DNA from: Oceanobacillus senegalensis
Lineage (GTDB): Bacteria > Bacillota > Bacilli > Bacillales > Amphibacillaceae
Reading direction: 5' to 3'
Assembly: GCF_900176885.1 (NCBI RefSeq)
Contig: NZ_LT839648.1
Coordinates: 2,508,618 to 2,572,617, forward strand
DNA length: 64,000 bases
Numbering within the stretch: position 1 is the stretch's first letter; each line of letters starts with the position of its first letter. The position numbers and the translations under genes are program-made. Below are positions 20,412 to 64,000 of the stretch, in pieces. The notes below the pieces were generated by a model that was not told the origin of the DNA, did no database searches, and saw nothing but the letters and a program-made list of their open reading frames with translations.

Positions 20412-20493
20412 ATGATTCCCTCCGTTTTATATATTGATTATTTACAAAATTCCTACTACTATTTTGATACTAACGTCTTTTAAATTTTATTGG

Positions 20494-21958: not shown

Positions 21959-21971
21959 CTTTATTTTCCTC

Positions 21972-23827: not shown

Positions 23828-23872
23828 TAATTGTCCACCTTTCCAGTAGAAATTCATTCTATTTTTACTCTA

Positions 23873-31882: not shown

Positions 31883-31961
31883 GTGTTATACTCCCCCATC
31901 TCTTATTAACAGGATCCGTCTCTTTTCCAAAGAAACAGACCCTAATGATAATTATTGTGAA

Positions 31962-32809: not shown

Positions 32810-32845
32810 TAACACCTCTCCCTTCAGTATTTAAATAGGTAAATG

Positions 32846-33610: not shown

Positions 33611-33633
33611 TTGTAATCCCTCCTAAAATAAAT

Positions 33634-34812: not shown

Positions 34813-34860
34813 GGACAATCTCTCCTTTTCATCTATTTATATGAAACTATCTCATTTTAA

Positions 34861-34878
34861 ATACCTACTAGTCAGTAT
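34861..34878. promoter_or_regulatory. TetR-type operator candidate upstream of the beta-oxidation block
   Basis: ATACCTACTAGTCAGTAT is palindromic at 14 of 18 positions around an ACTAGT centre. It lies 48 bases upstream of the dehydrogenase start at 34812, overlapping where a promoter is expected. Such a dyad fits a TetR-family repressor, the only one in the window being at 28014. Confidence 0.5.
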
Positions 34879-34894
34879 GTTTAGTTTAAAAAAA

Positions 34895-36478
34895 TTAATT
34901 TTGATATTGTTCTGTTAATCTTCTTTTTAATATTTTCCCAACCGTCGTTTTAGGTAACTCTTTTACAAACTCTACAGAATGCGGTACCTTATACGTAGCT
35001 AACCTATCTCGGCAAAAATCCACTAATTCTTTTTCGCTAAGCATTTCATTTTCTTTAAGAACAACAACTGCTTTCACCGTCTCTCCGCGATATTTATCTG
35101 GGATTCCAATAACAGCCGCTTCTAAAACTTTCGGATGTGTATAGATAACATCTTCTATTTCAATCGGATAAACATTAAACCCACTGGCAATAATCATTTC
35201 TTTTTTTCTACCTACTATATAAAAGAAGCCATCTTGATCCATTTTTGCTAAATCCCCTGTATAAAGCCAGCCATCACGTAGTACTTGATTGGTCTCCTCG
35301 GGCATATTCCAATATCCCTTCATAACTTGCGGCCCCTTTATTACTAATTCCCCAACTTCACCAACCGGCATAGGTTCTTCCCCATTTATAGAATCAACTA
35401 TTTTTGCATCTGTATTTGGTATTGGAATACCGATACTTCCAGGCTTTTGTATCCCTGTAATAGGATTACGGTGAGTGACGGGGGAAGCTTCCGATAGTCC
35501 AAAACCCTCCGATACTTTTGTTCCACTAGTATCATTAAATTGATTAAGAATTTCTACTGGTAACGGTGCAGATCCACTTGTACAAGTCCTTAAGCTACTC
35601 AAATCAAATTTCTTTTCTTTATAGTAGTTTAGTAGTGAAATAAACATAGTCGGAACACCAGGGAAAATGGTAGGCTTTGCTTGTTCAATCACCTTTACGA
35701 CTAATTCCACATCAAATTTAGGAACTAATATTAAATTCCCACCCGTATAAAATGTAAGGTTCATACAGCTGGTCATTCCGTAAACATGAAATAAAGGTGA
35801 AATAGTAAGCATTCGTTCTTCCCCTAATTTCATCTTAATTGCTGAAGTTGCGTAACTTTGTAATGTATTAGCAACTAAGTTATAATGCGTTAGCATTGCT
35901 CCTTTAGAACGTCCTGTTGTCCCACCAGTATATTGTAATACAGCTACATCTTCTCTTGGGTTAATTTCAACTATGGGAGTTGGTATGCCTTTTTCTTTCG
36001 TGAGTGTATTGAATCTGGAATCGCTTTCAATCGATACATTAATGATTGTAGATAAGGATGTATTACTTTCCACTTCTTTAACCGCTGAAACTAAATTATC
36101 TAATACGATAATTACTTCGGCTTCTGAATCATTTAATACATGTAATAACTCGGATGATTTATACATCGGGTTAACTTGAACAACGGTTGCTCCAATTGAA
36201 AGTGCCGCATAATAGCTTATAACATATTGCGGGCAATTAGGTAACATTAATGCTACCCTGTCACCTTTTTGAATCCCAATATTATAAAGTGAACTTGCCA
36301 CATTTTTTATCAATTGCTCTAGTTGTTTATATGAATATGTTTTTCCTAAAAAAGTGACGGCCTGATGATTAGGATATTTACGAACAGATTCGTTAAATAG
36401 TTGAGGCAATGAAACTTCAGGGATGTCAATTTCAGTTGGATTTCCTTTCGCGACATAATCTAGCCAAGGTCTTTCCAT
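34895..36478 (-). CDS. Long-chain-fatty-acid-CoA ligase family protein
   Basis: A 527-residue ANL ligase with QYTGGTTGRSKGAML (phosphate loop), GFGLSE, WLYTGDLAK and the C-terminal TTVGKILKRRL. It resembles LcfA/FadD-type ligases, and its N-terminus (PWLDYVAKGNP...EIPEVSL-like) is shared with the ligase at 40821. It has its own promoter at 36579-36606. Its stop is 83 bases from the next gene, so read-through into the beta-oxidation block is possible. Confidence 0.9.
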   Translation of the reverse strand: MERPWLDYVAKGNPTEIDIPEVSLPQLFNESVRKYPNHQAVTFLGKTYSYKQLEQLIKNVASSLYNIGIQKGDRVALMLPNCPQYVISYYAALSIGATVVQVNPMYKSSELLHVLNDSEAEVIIVLDNLVSAVKEVESNTSLSTIINVSIESDSRFNTLTKEKGIPTPIVEINPREDVAVLQYTGGTTGRSKGAMLTHYNLVANTLQSYATSAIKMKLGEERMLTISPLFHVYGMTSCMNLTFYTGGNLILVPKFDVELVVKVIEQAKPTIFPGVPTMFISLLNYYKEKKFDLSSLRTCTSGSAPLPVEILNQFNDTSGTKVSEGFGLSEASPVTHRNPITGIQKPGSIGIPIPNTDAKIVDSINGEEPMPVGEVGELVIKGPQVMKGYWNMPEETNQVLRDGWLYTGDLAKMDQDGFFYIVGRKKEMIIASGFNVYPIEIEDVIYTHPKVLEAAVIGIPDKYRGETVKAVVVLKENEMLSEKELVDFCRDRLATYKVPHSVEFVKELPKTTVGKILKRRLTEQYQN

Positions 36479-42440: not shown

Positions 42441-43454
42441 TCATTGATTATCTAGTACACCAACTTCTTCGTAATATCGCTTTGCACCAGGGTGTAATGT
42501 TTCTGGGTCAATACCATTTAGTACCGTATCCAAGCTAAAGTCTTTTGCTCTATCTGGAACTTGCTTTTCGAAAGTTTCTAAGTTTTCCCAGAATATTTTT
42601 GTCAGATTATAAACATACTCTTCGTCTAAATCCTTTCTGACTGTAATCATCGTCTCCATTACATATGTTGGCACATCTTCCTCGATTCCCTTATAAGTTC
42701 CTCCTGGTAGTGCACCTGCAGTGATTCCGTATCCTTTTTCTTCAATACTTTCCAATTCATTCTGATCAATAGGTAATATTTTGATTGGTTGCGTTATTTC
42801 CATTTCTTGTAAAGCAGGTACATATGGAGCACCACCTCCAAGGAAAACGTCTACATTATTATCTTTAAGCATAGAGGCACCATCTGAATAGTTTCCATAA
42901 GATATTTGCCCACCAGCATCAACAATGGATTTTTCATCAATACCATATTCCTCCATCATATTCCAAAACCCAACAGGCCCTCCGCCACCTTTTGGTCCAA
43001 GAAAAATATGCTTATCTAAGATATCCTTTATTGAATTAATATCATCATTATCAGCCGAAGTTGCTATCGTTTGATACACGGGGTATAAAGAACCAAAAGC
43101 TGCAATATTTTCAATTGGTTCTTCAAAACCCTCTCCACCTTGAAGTGCTGCATTAAAATCAGTCGTATAGTTTAGCCCCATTTGAATATCCCCGACTTTA
43201 AGAGATTTTAAATTCGCCGTTGAGCCTCCTTCAAGTTGTGTGGCATTTAAATTATTAAACTCAGTTGAATAAAGTTCCGTCATTGTTGTTGTAATTGGAT
43301 ACCATCCCGATCCCATTGGTCCAGAACCAATTGTCAAGAATTTATCAGGTGCCGACGGTTTATCACTTGAATTACTAGATGCCTCATTGTCCCCACACGC
43401 TGCTAAAGCCACCATAACCAAAATCATAAAACTACAAATTAACATTTTTTTCAT
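42441..43454 (-). CDS. TRAP transporter solute receptor, TAXI family
   Basis: A 337-residue lipoprotein with lipobox Cys20 (LAAC) and the TAXI-type beginning FLTIGSGPMGSGWYPITTTM (about 43-62). TAXI receptors deliver dicarboxylates or other organic acids to a fused TRAP permease. It lies 15 bases after that permease. In Gram-positives the lipid anchor keeps it on the outer face. Confidence 0.9.
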   Translation of the reverse strand: MKKMLICSFMILVMVALAACGDNEASSNSSDKPSAPDKFLTIGSGPMGSGWYPITTTMTELYSTEFNNLNATQLEGGSTANLKSLKVGDIQMGLNYTTDFNAALQGGEGFEEPIENIAAFGSLYPVYQTIATSADNDDINSIKDILDKHIFLGPKGGGGPVGFWNMMEEYGIDEKSIVDAGGQISYGNYSDGASMLKDNNVDVFLGGGAPYVPALQEMEITQPIKILPIDQNELESIEEKGYGITAGALPGGTYKGIEEDVPTYVMETMITVRKDLDEEYVYNLTKIFWENLETFEKQVPDRAKDFSLDTVLNGIDPETLHPGAKRYYEEVGVLDNQ

Positions 43455-43469
43455 AGGAACACCTCTTCC

Positions 43470-45434
43470 TTATCCCGTTTTTTGTGTCGTTTCATTAATA
43501 TCTATCGTATTAAATTTCTTCTGCCAAATAATTAAAGCGATAACTAAAACCAAACCTATTAAATCTCCATAAAGACCTGGTGTAATAAGTAAAATCGCAC
43601 TAATTAACATTAGAATTCTTTTAACTAATCCAAGTTGTCCCAAAAAGTAATCCTCTAGTGCACCGGCTAAGAAAACACAACTTAGGAAAGCACTTGCAAT
43701 TGCAATCACCATTTCAGTTGTATTTCCTCCCTGCATTACCAACACAGGATTGTATGCAAAAATAAATGGTACAAAGAAACCACCTAGTCCTATTTTAATA
43801 GCATAAACGGCTGTTCTGAGAGGATCCGACCCAGCTATCCCAGCTGTAGTATATGCTGTTATGGCAACAGGTGGAGTTAAACCTGACAACACACCAAAGT
43901 AAAATACGAACATATGAGCAGCAACCTCATTAACTCCTAGTTGAATTAATGCAGGTGCACCAAGCACAGCAAGAATGACATAAGCTGATACCGTCGGCAT
44001 ACCCATTCCCATAATAATTGAGGCTGCAGCAACTAGAATCAATAGTAATAGCAAGTTTCCACCTGCTAAATCAATTACGAATCGTGAAAAAGTAATACCT
44101 AATCCTGTTAATGAAACCGCCCCTACAATAATACCAGCTGTTGCACAAGCAGCTATTACGGATAAAGCACTTCTAGCCCCATCCTCTAATGCTGCTAATA
44201 TATCAAGGAAATTCATACGAGTAGCTTTACGAATCCAACTTAAAGCGATGGCGGCAAGTATCGCATAAAAACCTGCTTTCATTGGACTAAATCCATAGAC
44301 CATTAATCCAATAATAATTAATAATGATAAAAATAGATAACCTTGTTTTAGTAAAACCTTCCGAACACTTGGCAATTGTTCCTTAGGAATACCAATCATT
44401 TCCATACGCTTCGCATGAAAATATACAACCATTCCAGCAACAAAGAAATAAATAGTAGCTGGAATTAGAGCATATAAGGCAAGTTGGATATAAGGTATAC
44501 CAAGCGTTTCTGCCATGATGAATACTGACGCACCCATAATGGGTGGCATAATTTGGCCACCTTGTGAAGCAACCGCTTCAACTGCAGCAGAAAACCTCTT
44601 ACTATATCCTAGTTTTTTCATTAATGGAATCGTAAATGAACCTGTTATTGCAGCATTAGCAGCACCATTACCTGTAATTGTTGCTACTAACGCACTAGAA
44701 CCTACTGCTGATAATGCAGGTCCCCCCGTTTTATTACCAAAAAATCCGAAGGCAAAATCTGTAAAAAATTGACCACCGCCTGATCTCATTAAGAAAGATC
44801 CAAAAATAACGAAAAGTATTAACACTGTGGAACTTACATAAATTGGTTCACTAAATATACCTAACGTTCCACTAAACATATGGTCAATCATCTTTTCATA
44901 CCTAATCCCTGGATGTGCTAATGCACCAGGAAAATATTGACCAAAAAGAATATAGGTTAAAAAGAACACACCGATGAAAGCCATTAAAATTCCATTGGTT
45001 CGTCTTGTTGCTTCTAGAATCAATGCTATGAATATAGTTCCGAATATAACATCATTAGATCCTATATTTCCCTGTCTGGATTGAATTCCTTCTGCATTAA
45101 ACATCATATAACCAGCCGTTACAATTGTAATCAAAACAATTAGTATATCAATAATCCCAAACTCCTTCCCTTTTCTAAACGGAAAGAGAAAAAAGATTAA
45201 TAGTACAGCCCATAAGACGTGAACACTTCTTTGCTGCCATGAAGACAATGTACCGAATCCAGCAGTATAAATATGAAAAACGGATAACCCAATTGCTAAC
45301 AAAGATATTATTAGTATTAGTAACCTTGAGACATTCCACTTTTCTTTTCTTTCCTTCCATAACTGTTCTACGTAAGCTGGTTTTTCTTTTATTGTTGTAT
45401 CTATTTTGCCTGTATTACCTGTTTGAGCTACCAT
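43470..45434 (-). CDS. TRAP transporter permease, 4TM/12TM fusion protein
   Basis: A 654-residue membrane protein with about 16-18 hydrophobic segments. A DctQ-like N-terminal part is fused to the DctM-like part with GGQIMPPIMGASVFIMAE and GMGMPTVSAYVILAVLGAPA, typical of TAXI-TRAP systems. It imports an organic acid using the sodium gradient. GAGGTG lies upstream of the ATG. It is 69 bases after the dehydrogenase at 45504, in the same direction. Confidence 0.93.
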   Translation of the reverse strand: MVAQTGNTGKIDTTIKEKPAYVEQLWKERKEKWNVSRLLILIISLLAIGLSVFHIYTAGFGTLSSWQQRSVHVLWAVLLIFFLFPFRKGKEFGIIDILIVLITIVTAGYMMFNAEGIQSRQGNIGSNDVIFGTIFIALILEATRRTNGILMAFIGVFFLTYILFGQYFPGALAHPGIRYEKMIDHMFSGTLGIFSEPIYVSSTVLILFVIFGSFLMRSGGGQFFTDFAFGFFGNKTGGPALSAVGSSALVATITGNGAANAAITGSFTIPLMKKLGYSKRFSAAVEAVASQGGQIMPPIMGASVFIMAETLGIPYIQLALYALIPATIYFFVAGMVVYFHAKRMEMIGIPKEQLPSVRKVLLKQGYLFLSLLIIIGLMVYGFSPMKAGFYAILAAIALSWIRKATRMNFLDILAALEDGARSALSVIAACATAGIIVGAVSLTGLGITFSRFVIDLAGGNLLLLLILVAAASIIMGMGMPTVSAYVILAVLGAPALIQLGVNEVAAHMFVFYFGVLSGLTPPVAITAYTTAGIAGSDPLRTAVYAIKIGLGGFFVPFIFAYNPVLVMQGGNTTEMVIAIASAFLSCVFLAGALEDYFLGQLGLVKRILMLISAILLITPGLYGDLIGLVLVIALIIWQKKFNTIDINETTQKTG

Positions 45435-53237: not shown

Positions 53238-54338
53238 TCATACTTTGGTGATCCCCCTAACAATCTCGTCCGTATGCTTTCCAAGACCCGGAGCTGGTTC
53301 TAAGTCTTTTAAATCCGGATGATCTTTATATCTTGTAGAAACAAATCGCAATCCCCATTTTTCCTCTATCAATTTTCTCTCTTTATAATACGGATGGTTA
53401 ACCACTTCACCTGACTCTAATACTGGCGCCATGCAACAATCTACTTCTTGAGAGAATTTCAGCCATTCTTCAAATGTTCGACTTAGGAATAATTCTTTTA
53501 CTTCTTGGAAAATTTCATTATCTTGAGTAGGGCTAGACGTCTGTGCCGATATCCAGTCCTCCCTATTCACCGCGCGACAAAAGTTCTCCCAGAATTTTGC
53601 TTCTAAAGCACCCAAACTTATAAACCTTCCATCCTTCGTTTCATATAAGTAATAACAAATTAACGTCTTATTTAATGCAGGTGATCCATGTTGTTCACCT
53701 GTTGCTGACTCTAGCATTATATGATTTGTCATAATTGTTACCATAATATCTGCAAGGGCCAAATCAATATATGTTCCTTTCCCTGTTCTTTCTCTTTGAA
53801 CTAGGGCAGCTGAAATTGATTCACTTGCCGAAATTCCTCCAATTAAATCTGCAAATGTAATACTCGGATGAATAGGCACACCTTGTTTATCCTTCATTTG
53901 TGAAAGCACACCACTCATTGCCATGTAGTTTATATCATGGCTTCCTAAATGTTTCATATCCCCGGTTTGTCCATAACCTGATAGTGAGCAATAAATAATA
54001 TCTGGCTTTGTTTTGATAACATCTTTATAACTAATTCCCAATCGTTTCATAACACCAGGTCGAAAAGATTCAATCACAACATCTGATCCATGGATTAAGT
54101 CCCTGGCAATTTCCTGTTCTTTTTCATCTTTTAAATTTAAAGAAATGCTTTTCTTACCCCTATTTTGGGCACGAAAAGTATATTTGGGACCACCGTCTTT
54201 TTCTGTTGGATAACGCCCTAGTTCGCCACTTGGTGATTCCACTTTAATTACCTCTGCCCCCATATCAGCAAGACGCAGTGTCGCGTAAGGTCCAGGTAAA
54301 TATTGTGTAAAGTCAATAACACGAATTCCTTCTAACAT
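53238..54338 (-). CDS. CaiB/BaiF family: alpha-methylacyl-CoA racemase-type
   Basis: A 366-residue class III CoA-transferase-fold protein. RVIDFTQYLPGPYATLRLAD and GAEVIKVE open the fold. GSHDINYMAMSG carries His134 and TFADLIGG carries Asp164, matching the catalytic His/Asp pair of alpha-methylacyl-CoA racemases; CoA-transferases usually lack the His. It would invert 2-methylacyl-CoA stereochemistry so that beta-oxidation can proceed. A CoA-transferase role remains possible. GGTGGG precedes the ATG. Confidence 0.85.
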   Translation of the reverse strand: MLEGIRVIDFTQYLPGPYATLRLADMGAEVIKVESPSGELGRYPTEKDGGPKYTFRAQNRGKKSISLNLKDEKEQEIARDLIHGSDVVIESFRPGVMKRLGISYKDVIKTKPDIIYCSLSGYGQTGDMKHLGSHDINYMAMSGVLSQMKDKQGVPIHPSITFADLIGGISASESISAALVQRERTGKGTYIDLALADIMVTIMTNHIMLESATGEQHGSPALNKTLICYYLYETKDGRFISLGALEAKFWENFCRAVNREDWISAQTSSPTQDNEIFQEVKELFLSRTFEEWLKFSQEVDCCMAPVLESGEVVNHPYYKERKLIEEKWGLRFVSTRYKDHPDLKDLEPAPGLGKHTDEIVRGITKV

Positions 54339-54421
54339 CCATTACCCACCTTTGTATTAGAATAAAAAGGAGACCTTAAATCAGTTTCCTTTTCTCATTA
54401 AAGTAATTTTATTAAAACCTA

Positions 54422-55525
54422 TCAATCAACCAACCATTTATCCAACCATTCTTGGGCATCTGGATTATTTTCTAAATATTCTTTCTGATCTTCTTTTAAA
54501 AGTTCAACAATACGTTTTGTATCCTCATTTCTTGCTGCGAACTCATCCCAAACGACTTGTGAACTATCAATAAATTTCTGGAATTCTTCTCTTGTTAACT
54601 GGTGAATTTCCACACCATGTTCTTGAGCGAGTTCAAGAGCTGCTTCATCCATTTTCACGGAATTTTCAAAAGCTAATTCTTCCATTTCCTTTGAAACTTC
54701 TTCAATGGTTTGTTGAATATCCTCAGGAAGACTATTCCATTTATCCAGATTAATGTATGTTGCGACTAAAACTGGATCCAAAACTCCAGGAACGGTAATA
54801 TGATCTGCCACCTCATGTAGGTTATGGGTATCAAGTGCATAGAACGGATACATTGCTCCATCGATTGTACCTCTCATCAATGCTTCATATTGTTCACCAC
54901 CAGAGATATTTGCTGGAGCTGCTCCCATTTCTTCATACCATTTAGCCCAAATCCCTGAACCAAGTCGAAAAGTTTTACCACTCATATCCTCTATCGATTT
55001 AACTGGTTCTTTACTAATAATCCCTTCATTACCACTTGGCCAATACATCAATACTTTTACACCTTGTTCTTCCAAGTTTCCTTCATAAATTTCTCCAATT
55101 TCCGTTTCATTTAAAACATGTGACATATGATTTGGACCGTAGAATGCAAATGGAAGCCATGGGAAATCATTGGTAGCAATCGTTTCTCCCCAGTATGAAC
55201 CTGCACCAGCCATATCAATAGTTCCACTCTTTAAAGCATCTAATGTTTGGTCAGCCGAAGCCAGCTGCCCACTAAAATAGACATCCACTTCAACACGTCC
55301 ATCTGTTCTTTCATTTACTAGTTCCGCAAACTTCTCGGTCGCAGCATATTTTGGTTCATTTTCATCTGTTACCGGGGGAAATGTTACGTTCATTGTTAAT
55401 CTATATGTCTCTTCACCAGAACCGCCGCCTGACCCAGAGCTTTGTTCTCCTGAACTAGAACAAGCTGACAATACAATTACAGACAGAATGATGATAGGTA
55501 ATAGGAACCTTCCTTTTATTTTCAT
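54422..55525 (-). CDS. dctP: TRAP transporter substrate-binding lipoprotein, DctP type
   Basis: A 367-residue lipoprotein with lipobox Cys22 (LSAC) and a Ser/Gly-rich linker. The DctP-fold segments KFAELVNERTDGRVEV and GQLASADQTLDALKSGTIDM are typical. It captures an organic acid outside the membrane for DctQM. The permease genes are upstream at 55869-57720, separated by a dienoyl-CoA reductase remnant, an unusual split of the set. Confidence 0.92.
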   Translation of the reverse strand: MKIKGRFLLPIIILSVIVLSACSSSGEQSSGSGGGSGEETYRLTMNVTFPPVTDENEPKYAATEKFAELVNERTDGRVEVDVYFSGQLASADQTLDALKSGTIDMAGAGSYWGETIATNDFPWLPFAFYGPNHMSHVLNETEIGEIYEGNLEEQGVKVLMYWPSGNEGIISKEPVKSIEDMSGKTFRLGSGIWAKWYEEMGAAPANISGGEQYEALMRGTIDGAMYPFYALDTHNLHEVADHITVPGVLDPVLVATYINLDKWNSLPEDIQQTIEEVSKEMEELAFENSVKMDEAALELAQEHGVEIHQLTREEFQKFIDSSQVVWDEFAARNEDTKRIVELLKEDQKEYLENNPDAQEWLDKWLVD

Positions 55526-55552
55526 AGTAAAACACTCCTTTTTGTCTAAAGT

Positions 55553-55815
55553 TTATACGCCTTTAGTTAAAACTCGCCCTGCATCAATAACAAATGTTAA
55601 ACCTGTAACGAAATTTGCATAATCACTAACAAGGTAGGATGCTAGATTAGCAATTTCCCTTGTATTTCCAAAGCGTCCCATCAGAATATCTTTCAACATA
55701 CGCTCTTATTTGTTTTCATCTGGGAATAGCGAATCTACTGCGCCTGTTTCCAAAATAGGACCTGGAGGGAGAACATTTACTTTTGTACCACCACCGGTTA
55801 CAATAGCAACTTTAT
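55553..55815 (-). pseudogene. 2,4-Dienoyl-CoA reductase (SDR) remnant inside the TRAP gene set
   Basis: The minus strand reads DKVAIVTGGGTK, jumps to VNVLPPGPILETGAVDSLF, has a stop, then MGRFGNTREIANLASYLVSD and FVTGLTFVIDAG. The PGPI...TGA and GRFG...EIANLASFL wording matches FadH/YkuF-type dienoyl-CoA reductases. About 150 codons between the Rossmann loop and the C-terminal part are missing. It sits between dctM and dctP. Confidence 0.8.
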
Positions 55816-55868
55816 CTTATAGACTACCTTCTGGAAGTATTGAAGTTATATATTTTTTGTTCTTTCTA

Positions 55869-57182
55869 TTACCTTATAAGTTGTTCGGGCAGCCATAATA
55901 CCAGTTCAGGGAAAATCATACAGATGACTACAATGACAACATATAGACCAACAAATGGCCATACAGAAGCATAAATTTTACCAATATTAACATCTTTTGC
56001 AATTCCTCTCATAACAAATAAGTTAAATCCAAATGGGGGTGTCATGTATGCCATACACATTAGGATAACGAAAATAACACCGAACCAAACAGGATCAAAT
56101 CCCAATTGTAAGATAACCGGTAAAAATAATGGCCCCGTCATCAAAATAATTCCTGCAGGGTCTATAAACATACCTAGAAAGAAAAAAACAAGCAACATAC
56201 CAATTAATGTAATCCAGCGATTCACTTCAAAACTTGTGACTAAATTAGCAAACCATTCTCCTACTCCAGTAACCGTTACGATACGAGAGTATGCAACAGC
56301 ACCAAATAAAATCCAAAAGACCATCGCATTGATTCGTACTGTCATACTAAATATCTTTTTTAAGCTTTCTAAATTCAGCTTCCTTTTTACAGCGGCACTA
56401 ATCAAAGAACCAACCACACCAATCCCAGCTGCTTCTGTTGGAGTTGCAGCTCCAGTATAGATAGATCCGAGCACCAAGATAATTACAAAAATTGGAAGGA
56501 GAACACCTTTTAATGAAGAAATTTTCTCAGCCCATGTAAATCGTTCCTCTTTTGATAATGCGGGACCTAAATCAGGTTGAATCCAACATTTAATAAGTGC
56601 ATAACCCATGAATATAATTGCTGCAACAATTCCTGGTAAAATCCCTCCCATAAACAAAGCACCTGCAGAGGCACCGGCTTCTGAAGCATAAATTATCATT
56701 ATAATACTAGGTGGTATTAAGATTCCTAATGCACCACCAGCAATAATCGCACCCATTGTTAATTTATCGTCATATCCGCGTTGGAGCATCGACGGTCTTG
56801 CAGTAAGACCTAATGTTGCTGTTGCAACTGACGCAATTCCTACCATTGCAGCAAATATAGAAGAAATAATGGTTGTACCAGCAACAAGTCCACCTCTTAT
56901 TCCACCTAACCAACGAAAGACTACCTCATACATGTCTTCAGCAATTTCACTGTATTGTAATATAGCAGCCATTAGTATAAATAATGGAACAGCTGATAAT
57001 GTAAATTCAATCGCCTTTGCAAACGTACCAAGTGAAAATGCATCAATACTTGGCAGCCCCCCCCAGAATATAAAACCAAATACCAGTGATATACTTCCTA
57101 AACCAAAAGCAATTGGTATCCCTATTCCTAATAAAAACAACAACGAACCAAATAACAATAGTGCAATGACTCCTACTTCCAT
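55869..57182 (-). CDS. dctM: TRAP transporter large permease, DctM type
   Basis: A 437-residue permease of about 12 membrane segments. GIGIPIAFGLGSISL near the N-terminus, GGALGILIPPSIIMIIYA (about 147-164) and the C-terminal MTPPFGFNLFVMRG are standard for DctM. It forms the sodium-coupled translocation unit with DctQ, whose gene ends 16 bases upstream. GGGAGGTG precedes the ATG. Confidence 0.95.
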   Translation of the reverse strand: MEVGVIALLLFGSLLFLLGIGIPIAFGLGSISLVFGFIFWGGLPSIDAFSLGTFAKAIEFTLSAVPLFILMAAILQYSEIAEDMYEVVFRWLGGIRGGLVAGTTIISSIFAAMVGIASVATATLGLTARPSMLQRGYDDKLTMGAIIAGGALGILIPPSIIMIIYASEAGASAGALFMGGILPGIVAAIIFMGYALIKCWIQPDLGPALSKEERFTWAEKISSLKGVLLPIFVIILVLGSIYTGAATPTEAAGIGVVGSLISAAVKRKLNLESLKKIFSMTVRINAMVFWILFGAVAYSRIVTVTGVGEWFANLVTSFEVNRWITLIGMLLVFFFLGMFIDPAGIILMTGPLFLPVILQLGFDPVWFGVIFVILMCMAYMTPPFGFNLFVMRGIAKDVNIGKIYASVWPFVGLYVVIVVICMIFPELVLWLPEQLIR

Positions 57183-57198
57183 TTATTCTTGCACCTCC

Positions 57199-57720
57199 CT
57201 AAGCAATTTCTTTCCTCTCAATCAATTCCTCCCCTTTGATAATCCTATAAATATCTTTTATTAAATTAGCAATTGCCTGAAGACCTAACAGGATACCACC
57301 AATCGGCATCATGACCCATTTGATCCATAAATAGATACTTAAACCTGTACTTGCGATTGCACCAGTTTGATAATTATTTATAACCTGTTCCATCCCTTTC
57401 CAAATGAAAACGATAACAATTAAGAATACAAAAATAGAGCTAAAAATATTGATTACGCTTTGAATTTTAAGGGGAAATTTTTCATAAAATATATCAACTC
57501 TAACGTGAGCACCATATAAAAGTGCATATCCTCCTCCTAAAAAAGCTGCAATACCTGTGAACCATCCTGTTAAGTCAAAAGACCAAACAGGAGGATTGTT
57601 GAAGAAATACCGCATAACCACTGAGTAGGTAAGCAATATTCCCATTATGAGAACAATTGCCCCTACCACCCACATCATAGACTCATTTATTTTATTTATA
57701 ATTCGAATAGTAGTTTTCAT
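57199..57720 (-). CDS. dctQ: TRAP transporter small permease, DctQ type
   Basis: A 173-residue protein with four hydrophobic segments and the FNNPPVWSFDLTGWFTG DctQ motif (about 37-53). It partners DctM. A GGGGG ribosome site lies before the ATG. It follows the acyl-CoA ligase by 36 bases, linking transport to CoA activation. Confidence 0.92.
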   Translation of the reverse strand: MKTTIRIINKINESMMWVVGAIVLIMGILLTYSVVMRYFFNNPPVWSFDLTGWFTGIAAFLGGGYALLYGAHVRVDIFYEKFPLKIQSVINIFSSIFVFLIVIVFIWKGMEQVINNYQTGAIASTGLSIYLWIKWVMMPIGGILLGLQAIANLIKDIYRIIKGEELIERKEIA

Positions 57721-57756
57721 GGATATCCCCCTTAGCCTATCTAAACAATCTCAGCT

Positions 57757-59337
57757 TTACTCTTCGTTTCTCAATTCCTCATTCACCAATTTCCTTCGTA
57801 GTATTTTTCCTACTGTTGATTTTGGTAGTTCTTTTCGAAACTCAATAATTTTCGGAACCTTATATTTCGCTAATCTCTCGGTACACCAATTTTTAACATC
57901 TTCTTCCGTCATTGGTTCCTTCTCTACAATCGCTACTTTTACGGTTTCACCACGATATGCATCTGGTACCCCAAAAACACACGCTTCTTGTACAGATGGG
58001 TGTTGGTATATGACATTTTCGATTTCTGCTGGATAAATATTAAAACCACCAGCAATAATCATGTCTTTCTTCCGCCCAACTATATAGTAGTAGCCCTCTT
58101 CATCTCTTACTGCAATATCCCCTGTATAGAGCCAACCATCTCGCTTGGCATTCGCAGTCTCCTCCGGCCGATTCCAATACCCTTTCATTACTTGTGGGCC
58201 TTTAACAACTAATTCTCCAGATTCACCTGTAGGCATTTCCTTTTCACCTGTCCCTACATCAACAATTTTCACTTCTGTATTTGGAATGGGTATCCCAATA
58301 CTTCCAGTTTTTTTCTTTCCTTCTGTCGGATTACGATGTGTTGATGTAGATGCTTCTGAAAGCCCATATCCTTCAATAAAAACAGCATTTGTCACTTTCT
58401 TTACTTGTTTAATTACCTCGGTTGGCATTGGTGCTGATCCACAAACAAGAAGTTTAAAACATTTTAAATCATCTTTTTGAAATGTTTTATCATTTAAAAG
58501 AGCAATATACATTGTTGGAGATCCTAAAAATAATGTGGGTTTATGTTTCCTAATGGTTTCTAATGCAGTATTTGATTTGAAGCGTTCAACCGCAATATAT
58601 GTACCACCGATTTTCAAAGTTAAAAACATATTTGTCATCCCCATTGCATGATACATTGGAGCAGTACCTAGTAATCGGTGATTCGGTTGATCATAAATTA
58701 CTTTCACATGTTCGTATAATTGATGAATGTTGGATACAATATTCGAATGTGTCAACATCACACCTTTTGGTAGTCCTGTTGTTCCACCTGTGTATTGCAA
58801 AATAGCAACATCATTGTTTATATCAATATTCTTATCAGGGAGATCTTTTATTTCCTTTTTGATAAGGCTTTCAATTGTGTTCCCTGATGTAGCATCTACA
58901 TAAATGGTTTGTAGTTGATTAAGAATGCTGATTTTTTCTAATTTACTTTTTTCCCGCTCATAACCCACAAACCATGTCGCATTAGAATCTTTCAAAATAT
59001 GTTCAAGCTCTTGTGGTTGATACATCGGGTTCACTTGAACAATCGTTCCTCCTAGTCGATGTACCGCAAAAAACGTAATTATATATTCCAGACTATTCGG
59101 AACCATTAAAGCAAGCCGGTCTCCTTTTTTAAATCCTTCATGGAAAAGTGCTCCCGCCAAATGCTCATAGGATTCCTTCAATTCACAATACGTAACTTGT
59201 TTTTCTCCATCGATAACTGCAGTATGCGAATCGTATTGACGTACACTAGCTTCTAAAATATCAACAATCGATAGTTCAGGTAAATCAACTAGACGTAGTT
59301 TATCTTTCACTTCTATCGGATTTGAGGATTCACTCAT
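57757..59337 (-). CDS. Acyl-CoA synthetase (FadD-like)
   Basis: A 526-residue ANL ligase with QYTGGTTGLPKGVML (phosphate loop), EGYGLSEAS, WLYTGDIAV and the C-terminal KSTVGKILRRKL with the catalytic lysine. It activates the acid presumably brought in by the downstream TRAP genes. AAAGGAG precedes the ATG. It lies 34 bases after the SCPx-like thiolase gene in one transcript. Confidence 0.92.
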   Translation of the reverse strand: MSESSNPIEVKDKLRLVDLPELSIVDILEASVRQYDSHTAVIDGEKQVTYCELKESYEHLAGALFHEGFKKGDRLALMVPNSLEYIITFFAVHRLGGTIVQVNPMYQPQELEHILKDSNATWFVGYEREKSKLEKISILNQLQTIYVDATSGNTIESLIKKEIKDLPDKNIDINNDVAILQYTGGTTGLPKGVMLTHSNIVSNIHQLYEHVKVIYDQPNHRLLGTAPMYHAMGMTNMFLTLKIGGTYIAVERFKSNTALETIRKHKPTLFLGSPTMYIALLNDKTFQKDDLKCFKLLVCGSAPMPTEVIKQVKKVTNAVFIEGYGLSEASTSTHRNPTEGKKKTGSIGIPIPNTEVKIVDVGTGEKEMPTGESGELVVKGPQVMKGYWNRPEETANAKRDGWLYTGDIAVRDEEGYYYIVGRKKDMIIAGGFNIYPAEIENVIYQHPSVQEACVFGVPDAYRGETVKVAIVEKEPMTEEDVKNWCTERLAKYKVPKIIEFRKELPKSTVGKILRRKLVNEELRNEE

Positions 59338-59371
59338 AACATTACTCCTTTCTATATGTTTCTATGAAACC

Positions 59372-60553
59372 CTAAGAAAGTTCTTTCCCCACGACGGATA
59401 CAAAAGATACGCACTGCCATGGTGTTCCACCTAAATTATGTGTCAATCCGATCTTAGGATTATCCAATTGCCTTCTACCGGCCTTCCCTTGAAACTGTAA
59501 ATACATTTCATATAACATTCTAAGTCCACTAGCACCTATAGGGTGACCAAATGATTTCAAACCACCATCTGGGTTTACTGGGAGCCTGCCACTTAAATCA
59601 AAATCTCCATTTAGGACATCCTTCCAGCCCTGCCCACGTTCACTAAATCCTAGATCTTCATAAATAACTAGTTCAGTTGGGGTAAAACAGTCATGAACTT
59701 CAGCCATATCAATTTCTTCACGTGGATTATTAATTCCTGCTTCTTTATATGCTGCAGTAGATGCTGCAATATTTTCTTGAATTGATGTAAAATCAAAATC
59801 TTGTGTAATTCTTCCATCCCCAGGTCCTGCTGCTATGGAAAGTGCTTTTACATACATAGGATCTTCACGATATTTATGTGCATCTTCTGTACGAACGATA
59901 ATTGCTGCTGCTGCACCATCTGCTACACCAGAACAATCCATTATTCCTAGTGGAGAAGCTACCATTGGTGAATTCTCGATTTGTTCAATTGGTACCTCTT
60001 TCCTATATTGTGCTTTAGTATTTAGTGCACCATTTTTATGATTTTTCCATGCAATTCGCGAAAGTACTTTTTTTCCTTCCTTTGGATCTAGACCATATTT
60101 CTTAAAATATGCTGGTGCTAAAAAGGAAAAGCTTGCTGGGGCTGTGATATTAGGTGCAGTACCATCTGATGCCGGTGAAGGGCGAGTTAACCCACTATAT
60201 CCTGAATCTTTTAATTTCTCGACACCAACAGCAAGTACCACGTCGAACACACCGGATGCAACTGCATAACAAGCATTTCGGAATGCTTCTGAACCCGTTG
60301 CGCACAAATTCTCCACCCTTGTTACTGGAATATAATTTGTTTTTAATGGCCCAGCTAGCGTAAAACCAGCAAAACCAGAATTCATTGTTCCAAGCCATGC
60401 AGCGTCAACATCAGTTGGTTCAATTCCTGCATCCTCAAATGCATCGTATGCTGCTTCAACTAACAAATCATCCGTACTTTTATCCCAGTGTTCAGCAAAA
60501 CGGGTACACCCCATCCCAACAACAGCTACTTGGTCACGAATTCCTTTACTCAT
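59372..60553 (-). CDS. SCPx/lipid-transfer-type thiolase
   Basis: About 393 residues of the SCP2-thiolase group. Nucleophile-type Cys84 is in ENLCATGSEAF, HDCFTPTEL replaces [13 protein letters not shown] is present, and the C-terminus reads HNLGGTPWQC instead of CxGGG. These are features of SCPx thiolases and the Ltp aldolases of steroid side-chain degradation. The ATG at 60553 (AAGGAG 9 bases upstream) overlaps the preceding gene by 8 bases. It cleaves a 3-ketoacyl-CoA or performs a retro-aldol step, probably in complex with the DUF35 protein encoded upstream. Confidence 0.88.
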   Translation of the reverse strand: MSKGIRDQVAVVGMGCTRFAEHWDKSTDDLLVEAAYDAFEDAGIEPTDVDAAWLGTMNSGFAGFTLAGPLKTNYIPVTRVENLCATGSEAFRNACYAVASGVFDVVLAVGVEKLKDSGYSGLTRPSPASDGTAPNITAPASFSFLAPAYFKKYGLDPKEGKKVLSRIAWKNHKNGALNTKAQYRKEVPIEQIENSPMVASPLGIMDCSGVADGAAAAIIVRTEDAHKYREDPMYVKALSIAAGPGDGRITQDFDFTSIQENIAASTAAYKEAGINNPREEIDMAEVHDCFTPTELVIYEDLGFSERGQGWKDVLNGDFDLSGRLPVNPDGGLKSFGHPIGASGLRMLYEMYLQFQGKAGRRQLDNPKIGLTHNLGGTPWQCVSFVSVVGKELS

Positions 60554-61976
60554 CAACACCCACTCCTTTCACTCGTTTCGGTCTTGCTTTCCAGAAATAA
60601 TTATGAATTCCGCTTTGTCCATGCTTATATAATCTACGGAATGTTAACTCTACTTCCATTCCGATCTCTATTTCCTCTGGCTCACAATCTGTTACTTCAC
60701 ACATGATTCTACCACCACTTGCAAAATCAATAACGGCAATTAATGCAGGCGGTGCGGGTGTTGGTGCTAAATAATCCAGTGTATATGTTGTGATTGTCGC
60801 TGTTTTTCCAACAAACCGATAATCTTCCATTTGATCCTTAGCTTGACATTTGGCACAAACCCTCTGTTTTGGAAATTGTGGAATTCCACATGACTTACAT
60901 TTTGATCCATAAAATCCAAGGTTTTGGTCATAATTCCGATGCATTGCTGGTGCAGATGGACGATCACGTCCTGGTCTTCTAGCTGGTTCAGTCTCCAAAA
61001 TCCCTTTCCATTTCAGATAATTTGCATATGAAAGGTCATTATTTTTCACGTTTATATGGCCCTTTATCCCTTTGTTTGCGTTTTTTTTCGTTAGCGCATC
61101 TGTTGTCTGAAGTAAAATAATATCTGTCCCTTCAGCAAAGTTTGCAACTAATATATAATCACCAGGTTTTGCATTTTCCAATGCATCCACTAATAGCATT
61201 CCTGCATGCGCAGTTCCTGTTTGCCCTATATTATCAAATAACGGATCTTGAACTTGCTCTTTTCCTACCCCTAAGGCCTTCGCAATTTTCGAATATCCTT
61301 TTTTTCCTGGGGCAGAAATAGCAATTTTCGAGATATCAGATAAGCTGATTTCACTTTTTTCCAAAACTTGTGAAACAGCGCTTTTTACAGAAGTAGTAAA
61401 GACAGTGGAAAAAAATCTTTCTTCCCAACTTTTCTCAAATTCTTGCCCATTTGAACGCCACTGTCCAAGAATTTCATCTTGAATGGTTATAGAATCTACT
61501 AATCTAGCAATAACATCATCACCACTTCCCGTTATGAACGATACCGCTCCATCCCCAAATAGTTGTTCATTTGCCCCACTTGGTGCACCAACTTGACAAT
61601 CGGCTGTAACAACAAGTGTTTGTTTTTCTTGATCCAAAGCTTGAAGTAATGAGGAAGTCCCAGCTCTTAAAGAATGAGCAGATTCGATACCTCGTACATT
61701 TTCACGAAGATCTAATGCCTTTGTAATTGTTGATATAGATGATTTTTCGTCATATGGCCCATTTGTTGTTGCAAAATAAACCGTATCAATCTTTTTTTCA
61801 TCCAGTCCATTCAAACTATCGAAGCCTGCTTCAACACCCATAGATACGACATCTTCATCAAAACCTGCTACTGCCTTTTCTCCTTTAAGGGCCGATATAC
61901 CGAAAAAGTCTTTAAGCTTTGAACGTTTTAGACGATTATATGGAATATAAGCGCCATATGAAAGAATACCCCGCAA
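60546..61976 (-). CDS. HMG-CoA-synthase-like protein fused to a Zn-ribbon/OB-fold (DUF35) domain
   Basis: A 476-residue two-part protein. Residues 1-300 have the HMG-CoA synthase/KAS III fold, but the nucleophile position of CxAGT reads HSLRAGTSS (Leu103, no Cys). The usual HQPN His region reads ISAPGKKG. Residues 355-460 are a DUF35 module with zinc ligands Cys360, Cys363, Cys374 and Cys377 and an OB-fold. DUF35 proteins partner thiolase-like enzymes. The start is TTG with AAGGAGG upstream. A structural or acyl-presenting role is inferred. Confidence 0.85.
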   Translation of the reverse strand: MRGILSYGAYIPYNRLKRSKLKDFFGISALKGEKAVAGFDEDVVSMGVEAGFDSLNGLDEKKIDTVYFATTNGPYDEKSSISTITKALDLRENVRGIESAHSLRAGTSSLLQALDQEKQTLVVTADCQVGAPSGANEQLFGDGAVSFITGSGDDVIARLVDSITIQDEILGQWRSNGQEFEKSWEERFFSTVFTTSVKSAVSQVLEKSEISLSDISKIAISAPGKKGYSKIAKALGVGKEQVQDPLFDNIGQTGTAHAGMLLVDALENAKPGDYILVANFAEGTDIILLQTTDALTKKNANKGIKGHINVKNNDLSYANYLKWKGILETEPARRPGRDRPSAPAMHRNYDQNLGFYGSKCKSCGIPQFPKQRVCAKCQAKDQMEDYRFVGKTATITTYTLDYLAPTPAPPALIAVIDFASGGRIMCEVTDCEPEEIEIGMEVELTFRRLYKHGQSGIHNYFWKARPKRVKGVGVDE

Positions 61977-61997
61977 TCCTTTCCCCTCCTTATTTAC

Positions 61998-62408
61998 CTA
62001 TTGTTTTGTGGGAAGTACTGCTTCAAATGTACCTGCGACTTTTACTTCCCCTTCCAAATTTCGAGCTTGAACCTCACCGATCAATATGTTGTCTTCCTTT
62101 TTCATTTCAATTACTTTTCCAACAACTTCGATTACCTCACCAGGAAGAGTCATTTTTCGAAATCTGACATTATATTTTTTTATGTTTTTTCTAGGAATCC
62201 AACTTGTCACAGCTTTTGAGGCAATCCCCATAATGAGCATTCCATGAGCAATTACTCCTGTTCCTGCTTGCTCACCTACTTCCTCAACAGTGTGTAACGG
62301 ATTAAAATCTCCTGAAGCACCTGCATATTTTACAAGTTGAACTCTCGTAATCTCAGAATCTCGAACTACTGGGAAACTATCTCCTTTTTGGAAATCCTCA
62401 AAATACAT
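61998..62408 (-). CDS. MaoC-like (R)-hydratase, catalytic half
   Basis: A 136-residue hot-dog protein with the hydratase-2 motif YAGASGDFNPLHT carrying Asp34 and His39. It hydrates enoyl-CoA to (3R)-hydroxyacyl-CoA. The ATG at 62408 lies behind GGAGGGAG; a GTG at 62417 is possible. It is paired with the non-catalytic hot-dog gene 23 bases upstream. Confidence 0.9.
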   Translation of the reverse strand: MYFEDFQKGDSFPVVRDSEITRVQLVKYAGASGDFNPLHTVEEVGEQAGTGVIAHGMLIMGIASKAVTSWIPRKNIKKYNVRFRKMTLPGEVIEVVGKVIEMKKEDNILIGEVQARNLEGEVKVAGTFEAVLPTKQ

Positions 62409-62431
62409 CTTAATCACTCCCTCCCCTTTAA

Positions 62432-62884
62432 TTAATGACGTTCTATCGTAACACCTTTTGATTTTGCAACCAATTCACCGTTTAGATTAAAATACTTGTT
62501 CTCTGTTGTAATTAAATTCATTCCACCAGATGACCCTTGTTTAACGACAACATCAACAACTTTCGACTCTACAGAAAGGACATCTCCAACATAAATGTCA
62601 CCGATAAATTCATATTCTTGTTCACCATGTAAAACTTTTACCGGGTTAATTTGAAGTTTTTTCACTTTTTCCTCAAAACTCGGTCCAGCCCAGAAGTCAA
62701 CTGAGGTGAGAAAGGTTAAAGGAATTGGTATTCCTTTAAATCCTTCTTTTTTGGCCGATTCCAAATCATAATAAATTGGATTGTCCTCTCCAATTGCTTC
62801 TGCAAATTCTCTAACTTTACCCTTTTCTATTTCCATCGTATATGGTTCATATTGCACACCAATTAAATCTTTTACATTTGCCAA
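62432..62884 (-). CDS. MaoC-like dehydratase, N-terminal (non-catalytic) half
   Basis: A 150-residue MaoC_dehydrat_N protein. AIGEDNPIYYD replaces the Asp/His hydratase motif, and HGEQEYEFIGDIYVGD is typical of this half. It begins at TTG with GAGGTGAG 5 bases upstream. Together with the next gene it should form the heteromeric hydratase-2, like ChsH1/ChsH2-type or split MFE-2 hydratases. Confidence 0.87.
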   Translation of the reverse strand: MANVKDLIGVQYEPYTMEIEKGKVREFAEAIGEDNPIYYDLESAKKEGFKGIPIPLTFLTSVDFWAGPSFEEKVKKLQINPVKVLHGEQEYEFIGDIYVGDVLSVESKVVDVVVKQGSSGGMNLITTENKYFNLNGELVAKSKGVTIERH

Positions 62885-62919
62885 TTTTGCTCACCTCATT
62901 TTAAATGTTCTATTTTTAG

Positions 62920-63831
62920 TCAAACTAATGGATCATACGGGAATACATCTGCACTTACTTCTAGTGGTGTAAAGCTGTTTTTCAACGCTCCCTTAACAGA
63001 TGCTAAACTTTCAATATTCCATCCTTCTGAATTGTAGGTTGAACGAACAGGACGTGGTTGAGAGAAAACAACAATTTCTTTCCCTCTTACACCAAAGAAT
63101 TGTCCAGTTACATCATCCGCCTCATTAGATGCAAGAAATGCTACGAGTGGTGCAATATGTGCTGGGGTCATTTGTTGTATCTTTTTCACTCGTTCTTTTT
63201 CTGCATCAGTTTCAGTTGGAATCGTACCTATTAGGCGACTCCAAGCAAATGGTGCAACTGCATTTGCAGTAACATTATATCGTTGCATATCTAGAGCAGT
63301 AATTTTTGTTAAACCAGCAATTCCAAGTTTTGCTGCAGCATAATTTGCTTGCCCGATATTTCCAATTAGACCAGAAGTTGATGTGAAGTTTACAAATCTA
63401 CCACTCTTTTGTTCTTTAAATAATGGAGCAGCCAATCTTGTCATGTTAAATGTTCCTTTTAAGTGCACCGAAATAACAGAGTCAAATTCCTCTTCACTCA
63501 TTTTGAAAACCATCCGGTCTCTTAGGATTCCTGCATTATTTACCACAATGTCAAGACGTCCAAAAGTTTCAATTGCGGTATTTACGATGTTTTGAGCACT
63601 TTCAAATTCTGCTACAGAATCATAGTTTCCTACTGCTTCACCACCAGTGTCTTTGATTTCTTTAACTACTTCATCTGCTACTTTTGTATCATTTCCTGCT
63701 CCATCAGAAGAGCCACCTAAATCGTTTACAACAACCTTTGCACCTTCTTTTGCCATAAGTAATGCGATTTCACGCCCAATACCACGACCTGATCCTGTTA
63801 CAATTGCTACTTTTCCATCAAGATTTTTCAT
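62920..63831 (-). CDS. HSD17B4/MFE-2-type short-chain dehydrogenase
   Basis: About 303 residues, longer than FabG proteins and matching the dehydrogenase domain of peroxisomal multifunctional enzyme 2. It has GSGRGIG (13-19), VVVNDLGGSSDG (the MFE-2 signature after beta-2), NNAG, and Tyr164/Lys168 of YAAAK. A 50-residue C-terminal extension is present. It should oxidise (3R)-hydroxyacyl-CoA made by the MaoC pair. The ATG at 63831 has GGAAGAG upstream. Confidence 0.9.
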   Translation of the reverse strand: MKNLDGKVAIVTGSGRGIGREIALLMAKEGAKVVVNDLGGSSDGAGNDTKVADEVVKEIKDTGGEAVGNYDSVAEFESAQNIVNTAIETFGRLDIVVNNAGILRDRMVFKMSEEEFDSVISVHLKGTFNMTRLAAPLFKEQKSGRFVNFTSTSGLIGNIGQANYAAAKLGIAGLTKITALDMQRYNVTANAVAPFAWSRLIGTIPTETDAEKERVKKIQQMTPAHIAPLVAFLASNEADDVTGQFFGVRGKEIVVFSQPRPVRSTYNSEGWNIESLASVKGALKNSFTPLEVSADVFPYDPLV

Positions 63832-63855
63832 CACTCACTCTTCCTTTCAATTTAT

Positions 63856-64000
63856 TTATAGTCCTAGATCTTTAGAGATAATTACTTTCATAATTTCATT
63901 AGAACCAGCGAAAATGGATGTAATTGGAATATCACGATATCTTTTGGCAATCTTGTATTCTTCCATATATCCATAGCCACCATGCAATTGCATGCATTCT
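63856..64000 (-). CDS. Acyl-CoA dehydrogenase, C-terminal end (cut by window edge)
   Basis: The last 48 codons are visible: MQLHGGYGYMEEYKIAKRYR and FAGSNEIMKVIISKDLG, ending at 63856. HGGYGYM and the AGSNEIM base region are typical of ACADs in isoprenoid and branched-chain pathways; the catalytic position reads AGSNEI rather than EGTNEI. It precedes the SDR by 24 bases and is probably in the same operon. Confidence 0.9.
   Translation of the reverse strand, partial: ECMQLHGGYGYMEEYKIAKRYRDIPITSIFAGSNEIMKVIISKDLGL

Follow-up and report, generated by a model that had tools for sequence, protein, structure and literature searches.

A minus-strand operon of Oceanobacillus senegalensis with the predicted make-up of an (R)-specific beta-oxidation cycle for branched or bulky carboxylic acids

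Results

The genes of the operon

The DNA analysed here (the window: 64,000 bases of Oceanobacillus senegalensis, bases 2508618-2572617 of contig NZ_LT839648.1 in a 4.3 Mb genome, assembly GCF_900176885.1) ends at its right in a single minus-strand operon, which by gene calls, Pfam and NCBIfam extends from a pair of acyl-CoA dehydrogenase (ACAD) genes just right of the window to a CaiB-family gene at 53238 (Table 1). Between them lie genes for a short-chain dehydrogenase/reductase (SDR), two MaoC-like hydratase subunits, a fusion protein (FUS) that joins a 3-hydroxy-3-methylglutaryl-CoA synthase (HMGCS)-like domain to DUF35, a thiolase (THL), an AMP-forming ligase (LIG) and a tripartite ATP-independent periplasmic (TRAP) importer. 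All of the gene types that the initial annotation had listed for this run are present, the ACAD inside the window only as its last 145 bases. Intergenic gaps measure 0-83 bases, with one 14-base overlap; the exception is a space of 343 bases before dctP, which holds the relic of an SDR gene.

A thiolase and its predicted pseudo-enzyme partner

The initial annotation had described FUS as a DUF35 fusion. The DUF35 part was borne out: both the zf-ChsH2 and the OB_ChsH2_C Pfam models score above cut-off, and a C-x2-C-x10-C-x2-C zinc ribbon (Cys360/363/374/377) is present in 62 of 62 aligned relatives (out of 120 listed; 2871 matches were obtained among the best 7997 candidates scored). The N-terminal part, which had been left unnamed, is an archaeal-type HMGCS domain: it matches PRK04262 with 175 bits, below the cut-off of 244, and the best solved relative of FUS is the archaeal complex 6ESQ/6ET9, with 83 bits for the HMGCS domain and 70 bits for DUF35. 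When FUS is aligned to solved HMGCS, the positions of the Cys, His and Glu that we take to be catalytic in that enzyme are occupied by L103, S221 and T71. None of the 62 relatives has any of these three residues (the Cys column holds Leu in 59, Val in two and Thr in one), nor does any of a second set of 102 FUS rows drawn from the fetched loci, window included, in which the His column contains one gap. Judged by its residues, the HMGCS half of FUS is thus a predicted pseudo-enzyme. A function in HMG-CoA synthesis or the mevalonate pathway is ruled out by the lost active site. Several proteins of the family carry the source annotation "hydroxymethylglutaryl-CoA synthase".

THL scores 618 bits with the PRK06157 model (cut-off 403) versus 218 bits with the lipid-transfer model PRK08256. 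Its nearest solved structure is the archaeal DUF35-bound thiolase of 6ESQ (213 bits), followed by SCP2-thiolase type-1 (165 bits) and BbsAB (7PXP, 157 bits), so that SCP2 thiolases are not its closest relatives; the earlier description of THL as SCPx-like holds at the level of the superfamily, with the catalytic residues kept, but not for its nearest kin or for the arrangement of its domains, which is not the peroxisomal one. Across 81 FUS-linked THLs, that of the window and the archaeal reference, aligned together (81 of the 91 FUS-THL pairs found; short sequences and those of loci L079 and L009 were dropped), every one of the 83 rows has the nucleophilic Cys, HDCF and the second His, and in a wider set of 97 rows one masked letter is the sole deviation in the catalytic residues. 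HDCF is the motif of SCP-2 thiolases; its counterpart is YDHF in Ltp2 and YDCY in Sal, where Gly takes the place of the nucleophile, according to the available portion of PMC12329534. The archaeal thiolase in 6ESQ, like THL, has both HDCF and the nucleophilic Cys. Since it keeps this Cys and HDCF, THL should cut by thiolysis. An aldolase of the Ltp2 or Sal type is ruled out by the same residues, which stand in place of YDHF or YDCY.

By a distance rule, THL follows FUS in 89 of 92 copies, and in the other three its reading frame overlaps that of FUS; four further FUS copies lie too near a contig end for THL to be placed. This adjacency gives indirect support to a THL/FUS complex, which by analogy with solved complexes would be assembled via DUF35.

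Several known systems resemble this pair in part. BbsAB, like the window, combines a thiolase with a DUF35 zinc-finger subunit in a degradation pathway, but NCBIfam BbsB scores THL at 158 bits against a cut-off of 750, and to our knowledge BbsAB has no HMGCS domain. The archaeal acetoacetyl-CoA thiolase/DUF35/HMG-CoA synthase complex (6ESQ, 6ET9) has the same three modules as THL plus FUS; in the window, however, HMGCS and DUF35 form one chain, the HMGCS residues are lost, and the setting is beta-oxidation instead of mevalonate synthesis. PhlABC (5M3K) also unites an HMGCS-like partner without Cys and Glu, a DUF35 subunit and an active thiolase-type subunit, but does so in three separate chains and is a phenol C-acylase. 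As far as the available text of PMC6392133 goes, PhlA lacks the same Cys and Glu within a working thiolase-type complex, and the substrate is touched by residues of PhlC only. Ltp2-ChsH2 and Sal-Shy share the thiolase fold, DUF35 and a MaoC hydratase with the operon, but their YDHF and YDCY motifs are absent from THL. By sequence, peroxisomal SCPx is a more distant match for the carbon-cutting enzyme than are the archaeal complex and PhlABC. A 2010 paper on the SSO2064 family (PMC2954200) already described DUF35 joined to members of the thiolase superfamily, to SDR-like domains, to SCP2 and to hot-dog dehydratases; neither "hydroxymethylglutaryl" nor "HMG" occurs in its text, and it does not deal with the loss of an HMGCS active site. 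Within the open-licence literature, as judged by titles and the starts of abstracts, no paper on the operon or on a dead-HMGCS/DUF35 fusion was found.

The CaiB protein

Residues H134, D164 and E246 of CaiB align with H126, D156 and E241 of the mycobacterial alpha-methylacyl-CoA racemase (MCR; 1X74, 147 bits), a distant protein from another pathway context, in which mutation of these three residues lowers activity according to the part of PMC10967716 available to us. The triad is invariant in 51 of 51 aligned relatives (120 were listed; 7205 matches among the best 8000 candidates scored) and in each of the 20 CaiB proteins encoded at FUS loci, that of the window included. In a reference alignment, MCR and the FUS-locus CaiBs scoring above 200 bits have H/D/E where SUGCT, formyl-CoA transferase and YfdE have Y/D/N; among 11 other CaiB paralogues in that alignment, six have Y/D/N and none the H/D/E triad. 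A tree of 45 rows likewise splits the FUS-locus CaiBs together with MCR from SUGCT, formyl-CoA transferase and YfdE, with branch support of 100/99. Triad and tree therefore agree with the racemase-type CaiB originally proposed from its His/Asp pair, and the protein is predicted to be of the alpha-methylacyl-CoA racemase type. CaiB thus does not fall with enzymes of straight-chain metabolism; the thiolase and SDR groups mix branched and straight-chain use.

The remaining enzymes of the cycle

Among 25 NCBIfam models listed for LIG (of 110), none scored above its cut-off and none hinted at a substrate; the nearest solved structure is a fatty-acyl/feruloyl-CoA synthetase (303 bits). The ACAD is nearest to 2pg0 (620 bits), which we take to be a Geobacillus ACAD, and next scores 373 bits with mitochondrial long-chain acyl-CoA dehydrogenase (LCAD). 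The SDR has its nearest solved relative in 2et6, a (3R)-hydroxyacyl-CoA dehydrogenase (372 bits, two stretches summed) and presumably the yeast peroxisomal enzyme with straight-chain use, followed by 3qlj (short chain dehydrogenase, 221 bits), 17beta-HSD4 (213 bits) and the best entry named as an acyl carrier protein (ACP) reductase (183 bits); its sequence is thus nearest to MFE-2 SDR domains, as had been suggested. The split hydratase-2 also stands: one of its MaoC subunits is catalytic and the other inert. The strict dyad pattern of the catalytic type occurs in 16 of 17 distinct proteins from relatives' loci, and the 17th, from locus L019, keeps Asp and His by reading; proteins of the inert type have the Asp/His dyad in none of 17 cases, and the pair in the window shows the same split. 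In ChsH1-ChsH2 an inert MaoC partner accommodates bulky rings, according to the available part of PMC11321319.

Conservation of the operon in other genomes

A contig scan confirmed at least 522 stretches with a FUS relative, of which the best 80 were taken into the gene-content analysis. Genes were counted when they lay within 8 kb of FUS on the same strand, at the 13 of 17 Bacilli loci whose downstream sequence reached 6.5 kb or more and at 40 of 74 others. The 13 Bacilli loci contained THL in 13 cases, an SDR in 13, each MaoC in 11, a close ACAD in 9, CaiB in 9, the ligase in 7, a 4TM TRAP protein in 1, and DctM and the citryl-CoA-lyase-like gene (CCL) in none; eight had the core plus CaiB. 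The 40 other loci had THL in 40, the core in three, CaiB in two and the ligase in three, with DctM and CCL again in none. Conservation of gene order, a check proposed at the outset, was found in Bacilli: the order FUS-THL-ACAD-MaoC-MaoC-SDR-CaiB recurs in six of eight further loci, which came from the search of the taxonomic order, and one more has the Peribacillus order (probably L016 again). The gene set is more than a chance assembly, because its core recurs in fixed order in other genomes. The remaining locus of the eight (L142, genome G860) has the same order with only an 80-bit match at the CaiB place, possibly a broken copy.

Of the 21 FUS genomes searched, 16 contain a CaiB of at least 300 bits. 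In 15 of these 16 it is no more than about 7 kb from FUS (in the other it is on a different contig), so that the racemase-like gene is tied to the module in Bacilli. FUS itself is patchily distributed, with 3/58 relatives, 1/159 genomes of the family, 12/397 of the order and 11/398 of the class positive (the window's genome included), which suggests transfer or loss. The closest FUS of the genomes searched is that of Pueribacillus theae (70 percent identity), where a CCL-ACAD2 pair (L149; 490 and 757 bits), a long ACAD, a ligase (760 bits) and an NDP-forming synthetase lie further along the contig. In Peribacillus asahii (L016) and Bacillus dakarensis (L019) the core is preceded by HMG-CoA-lyase-like, FadA-type thiolase and butyryl-CoA:acetate-transferase-like genes (258 bits for the last in L016, cut-off 675), perhaps a sign that these strains form a product with a 3-methyl branch.

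Discussion

A probable (R)-specific beta-oxidation cycle

Gene content, conservation of the operon and the active-site residues kept or lost can be read from the sequence, and with a probability that we put at roughly 0.6 they describe every step of an (R)-specific beta-oxidation cycle whose substrates are 2-methyl-branched or otherwise bulky carboxylic acids. The ligase would activate the acid to its acyl-CoA, CaiB would epimerise the 2-methyl (or 2-substituted) acyl-CoA for use by the dehydrogenase, and the ACAD would yield the enoyl-CoA; the two-subunit MaoC hydratase, its pocket widened by the inert subunit, would add water to give the (3R)-alcohol, and the MFE-2-like SDR would oxidise it. 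THL, in complex with FUS, would then cut the 3-keto-acyl-CoA, releasing propionyl-CoA if a 2-methyl group is present and otherwise acetyl-CoA, with the dead HMGCS domain serving as a scaffold or CoA cavity linked to THL through DUF35. We infer complex formation, direction, substrate class and the propionyl-CoA product. The peroxisome-like branched-chain route of the initial annotation is the best reading up to the last step; the cutting enzyme belongs with the DUF35-bound thiolases. The operon shares with peroxisomal AMACR/MFE-2/SCPx the racemase triad, the (3R)-dehydrogenase and hydratase-2 types and a thiolase with the SCP-2 motif, but differs in having an ACAD in place of an oxidase, split genes, and a DUF35/pseudo-HMGCS partner where the peroxisomal enzyme has an SCP2 domain.

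A number of observations weigh against this cycle. TRAP carriers usually take small hydrophilic acids and fit long isoprenoids poorly, and the route does not account for the citryl-CoA-lyase-like gene within the operon. The MFE-2-like type of SDR stands near FUS in two of the 13 Bacilli loci, most carrying another SDR, and without the summed domains of 2et6 its lead over ACP reductases is modest (221 and 213 versus 183 bits). The core does not need the racemase, since it occurs without CaiB in the anaerobes Desulfotomaculum/Desulfotruncus (L022, L028 and L029) and in Pueribacillus theae, where there is no close CaiB (best 279 bits, elsewhere). MCR is the sole racemase in the CaiB tree and sits on a long branch, and in the PDB the CaiB-family profile scores SUGCT (218 bits) and formyl-CoA transferase (207 bits) slightly above racemases (203 bits). 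In five of the 62 FUS relatives an unaligned Cys precedes the lost position by two or three residues. An inert MaoC subunit does not prove a bulky substrate, because Shy handles bulky substrates without an inert partner, as stated in the accessible part of PMC11321319. Finally, no methylisocitrate lyase scored above cut-off in the genome; there is a methylmalonyl-CoA mutase (799 bits) that could take up propionyl-CoA, together with a second long frame resembling a mutase, which makes methylmalonyl-CoA the probable route for this product.

Some of these points would be met by general (R)-specific beta-oxidation of straight-chain or mixed acids, with CaiB as a CoA transferase or accessory protein and branching not the point: the core lacks CaiB in several lineages, the CaiB profile gives transferases scores no lower than those of racemases, and the best solved relative of the SDR is, as we take 2et6 to be, a yeast peroxisomal enzyme acting on straight chains. 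We consider this unlikely, since the racemase triad is invariant and the transferase residues are absent in CaiB, the gene is co-located with FUS in 15 of 16 genomes, and the hydratase pairs an inert with a catalytic MaoC subunit.

The CCL gene raises a second alternative, in which the substrate is a special branched dicarboxylic, arylpropionic or alicyclic acid, CCL makes a second C-C cut (of the 2-substituted malyl-CoA type) and the TRAP system imports this small acid. CCL (294 bits, cut-off 193) sits directly between the two ACADs of the operon, Pueribacillus has a CCL-ACAD2 pair near its own version of the cluster, the importer is of the DctP type, and reading of open reading frames (ORFs) places an itaconate-type cluster further right. 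However, because CCL was found within 8 kb of FUS in 0/13 Bacilli and 0/40 other loci, it lies outside the conserved unit, and we regard this reading as quite improbable.

Degradation of steroid or bile-acid side chains, as in Actinobacteria and Proteobacteria, has parts in common with the operon (racemase type, paired MaoC, DUF35, a thiolase-fold enzyme and an ACAD) but is very improbable: THL has HDCF and the nucleophilic Cys and not the aldolase motifs, and the ACAD is nearest to 2pg0 and mitochondrial LCAD. Neither steroid-ring genes nor a geranyl-CoA carboxylase were seen in the 37 kb to the right, where ORFs of at least 120-130 residues were read by eye and not each family-searched; citryl-CoA-lyase-like genes stand there instead of the ring-degradation or geranyl genes for which an extension had been proposed. 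The extradiol dioxygenase model TIGR03213, the one such family searched in the genome, reached 82 bits against a cut-off of 366. On these two results a steroid ring pathway was rejected, and nothing was seen that favours the bile-acid or steroid-like substrates originally suggested. A biosynthetic direction, with THL condensing, the SDR reducing and MaoC dehydrating to make, for instance, a branched acyl compound or to transfer an acyl group as PhlABC does, could invoke the biosynthetic PhlABC and archaeal complexes and the reversibility of SDR and MaoC enzyme types, but an acyl-CoA ligase, an ACAD and a racemase-type protein encoded in the same operon, with an importer and catabolic-looking neighbour clusters, point to breakdown and make it hardly credible.

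Branched or bulky acids are thus the best-supported substrate class for the (R)-specific cycle; bile acids and steroids are not supported. Beyond this genome, the odds seem to us about even that THL and FUS represent a widespread, undescribed class of degradative thiolase, in which an active SCP2-superfamily THL is always paired with a one-chain dead-HMGCS/DUF35 protein (Bacillota, Chloroflexota, delta- and gammaproteobacteria), and which in Bacilli works within a seven-gene route for 2-methyl-branched acids that echoes peroxisomal logic. If so, Bacillus-type bacteria would have a defined way to break down acids that are 2-methyl-branched or bulky (isoprenoid, arylpropionic, alicyclic), compounds relevant to soil carbon, petroleum and drug residues, and the common annotation as hydroxymethylglutaryl-CoA synthase would give way to a testable claim, that the synthase half is a pseudo-enzyme serving a thiolase. 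With the conserved seven-gene unit, the route and the pseudo-enzyme claim alike can be tested in cultivable strains.

Importer, flanks and neighbouring clusters

DctP, DctQ and DctM stand together in the window (Pfam), in keeping with the TRAP importer described in the initial annotation, but not as part of the conserved unit, which is ruled out by the absence of DctM near FUS: because this gene was found there in 0/13 Bacilli and 0/40 other loci, the importer is a local addition in the window's genome. Among solved structures DctP is nearest to chains labelled as binders of dicarboxylate or isethionate (97 and 96 bits), which indicates a generic carboxylate or sulfonate binder only. The other TRAP type (TAXI/4TM) occurs near FUS in one of the 13 Bacilli loci and, at a greater distance, in Pueribacillus, where there is also a DctP on its own. 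The SDR relic (55539-55830, minus strand) hints at a past rearrangement between dctM and dctP.

Table 1. Features of the operon. All lie on the minus strand; right-flank coordinates are prefixed L009 (or, in the text, L010), all others are positions in the window.
Feature	Position	Strand	Evidence
CaiB/BaiF, predicted alpha-methylacyl-CoA racemase type	53238..54338	-	Pfam CoA_transf_3; triad; tree
DctP, TRAP solute-binding protein	54422..55525	-	Pfam DctP 212 bits
SDR gene relic between dctM and dctP	55539..55830 (approximate)	-	By eye: SDR-like start and end, internal stop
DctM, TRAP large permease	55869..57182	-	Pfam DctM 270 bits; TIGR00786 307 bits, cut-off 268
DctQ, TRAP small permease	57199..57720	-	Pfam DctQ 105 bits
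LIG, AMP-forming acyl-CoA ligase	57757..59337	-	Pfam AMP-binding 321 bits
THL, thiolase, PRK06157 family	59372..60559	-	NF004810 618 bits, cut-off 403; Cys86, HDCF 289-292, His339 present
FUS, HMG-CoA-synthase-like domain without active site + DUF35 (Cys4 zinc ribbon, OB fold)	60546..61976	-	Pfam, NCBIfam, alignment
MaoC hydratase, catalytic subunit (HadB-like; GDFNPLH, Asp/His dyad kept)	61998..62417	-	Pfam MaoC
MaoC-like hydratase, inert subunit (HadA-like/MFE-2 N; GEDNPIY, dyad absent)	62432..62884	-	Pfam FAS1_DH_region, MFE-2_hydrat-2_N
SDR, MFE-2-like (3R)-hydroxyacyl-CoA dehydrogenase	62920..63834	-	Nearest solved structures
ACAD, 3' end (last 145 bases in window)	63856..64000	-	Whole gene = L009:2474-3664
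CCL, citryl-CoA-lyase-like gene, same run, upstream of ACAD	L009:3665-4450	-	NF004868 294 bits, cut-off 193
ACAD2, same run, upstream of CCL	L009:4454-5632	-	In tight succession with CCL

The 0.8 kb upstream of ACAD2 contains a promoter-like site (L009:6073-6045) and a relic resembling an IclR start; the site is weak evidence, because counts of such promoters, and of terminators, are not clearly above those in shuffled sequence. The short relic (L009 about 5940-6020, minus strand) follows just after the site and resembles the start of the IclR regulator at L009:16534-17334. Family search or ORF reading of the right flank gave an enoyl-CoA hydratase, a long ACAD, an SDR, a second CCL and a thioesterase, as well as an NDP-forming acyl-CoA synthetase, a TAXI/4TM TRAP importer and the IclR regulator. 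The second CCL (L009:9785-10573, minus strand; NF004868 297 bits, cut-off 193) lies, like the first, inside an acyl-CoA cluster. Further right, L010:310-4266 (minus strand) reads as MmgE/PrpD, MaoC, a transferase-type CaiB (Y/D/N) and a CitE-like lyase with a DASS-type carrier upstream, presumably an itaconate-type pathway.

Within the window, ORF reading placed further acyl-CoA clusters at 19218-45434 (minus strand), one of which (30677-36478, minus strand) has a MaoC pair of its own, with an SDR, two ACADs and a ligase; an ABC importer of the branched-chain-amino-acid type lies at 19218-23857 (minus strand), and a TAXI/4TM TRAP system in an acyl-CoA cluster at 42441-45434 (minus strand). At the left, an S-adenosylmethionine (SAM) riboswitch (8601-8712, plus strand; 84 bits) precedes an ORF (8859-10481) that looks like a sodium-solute symporter gene.

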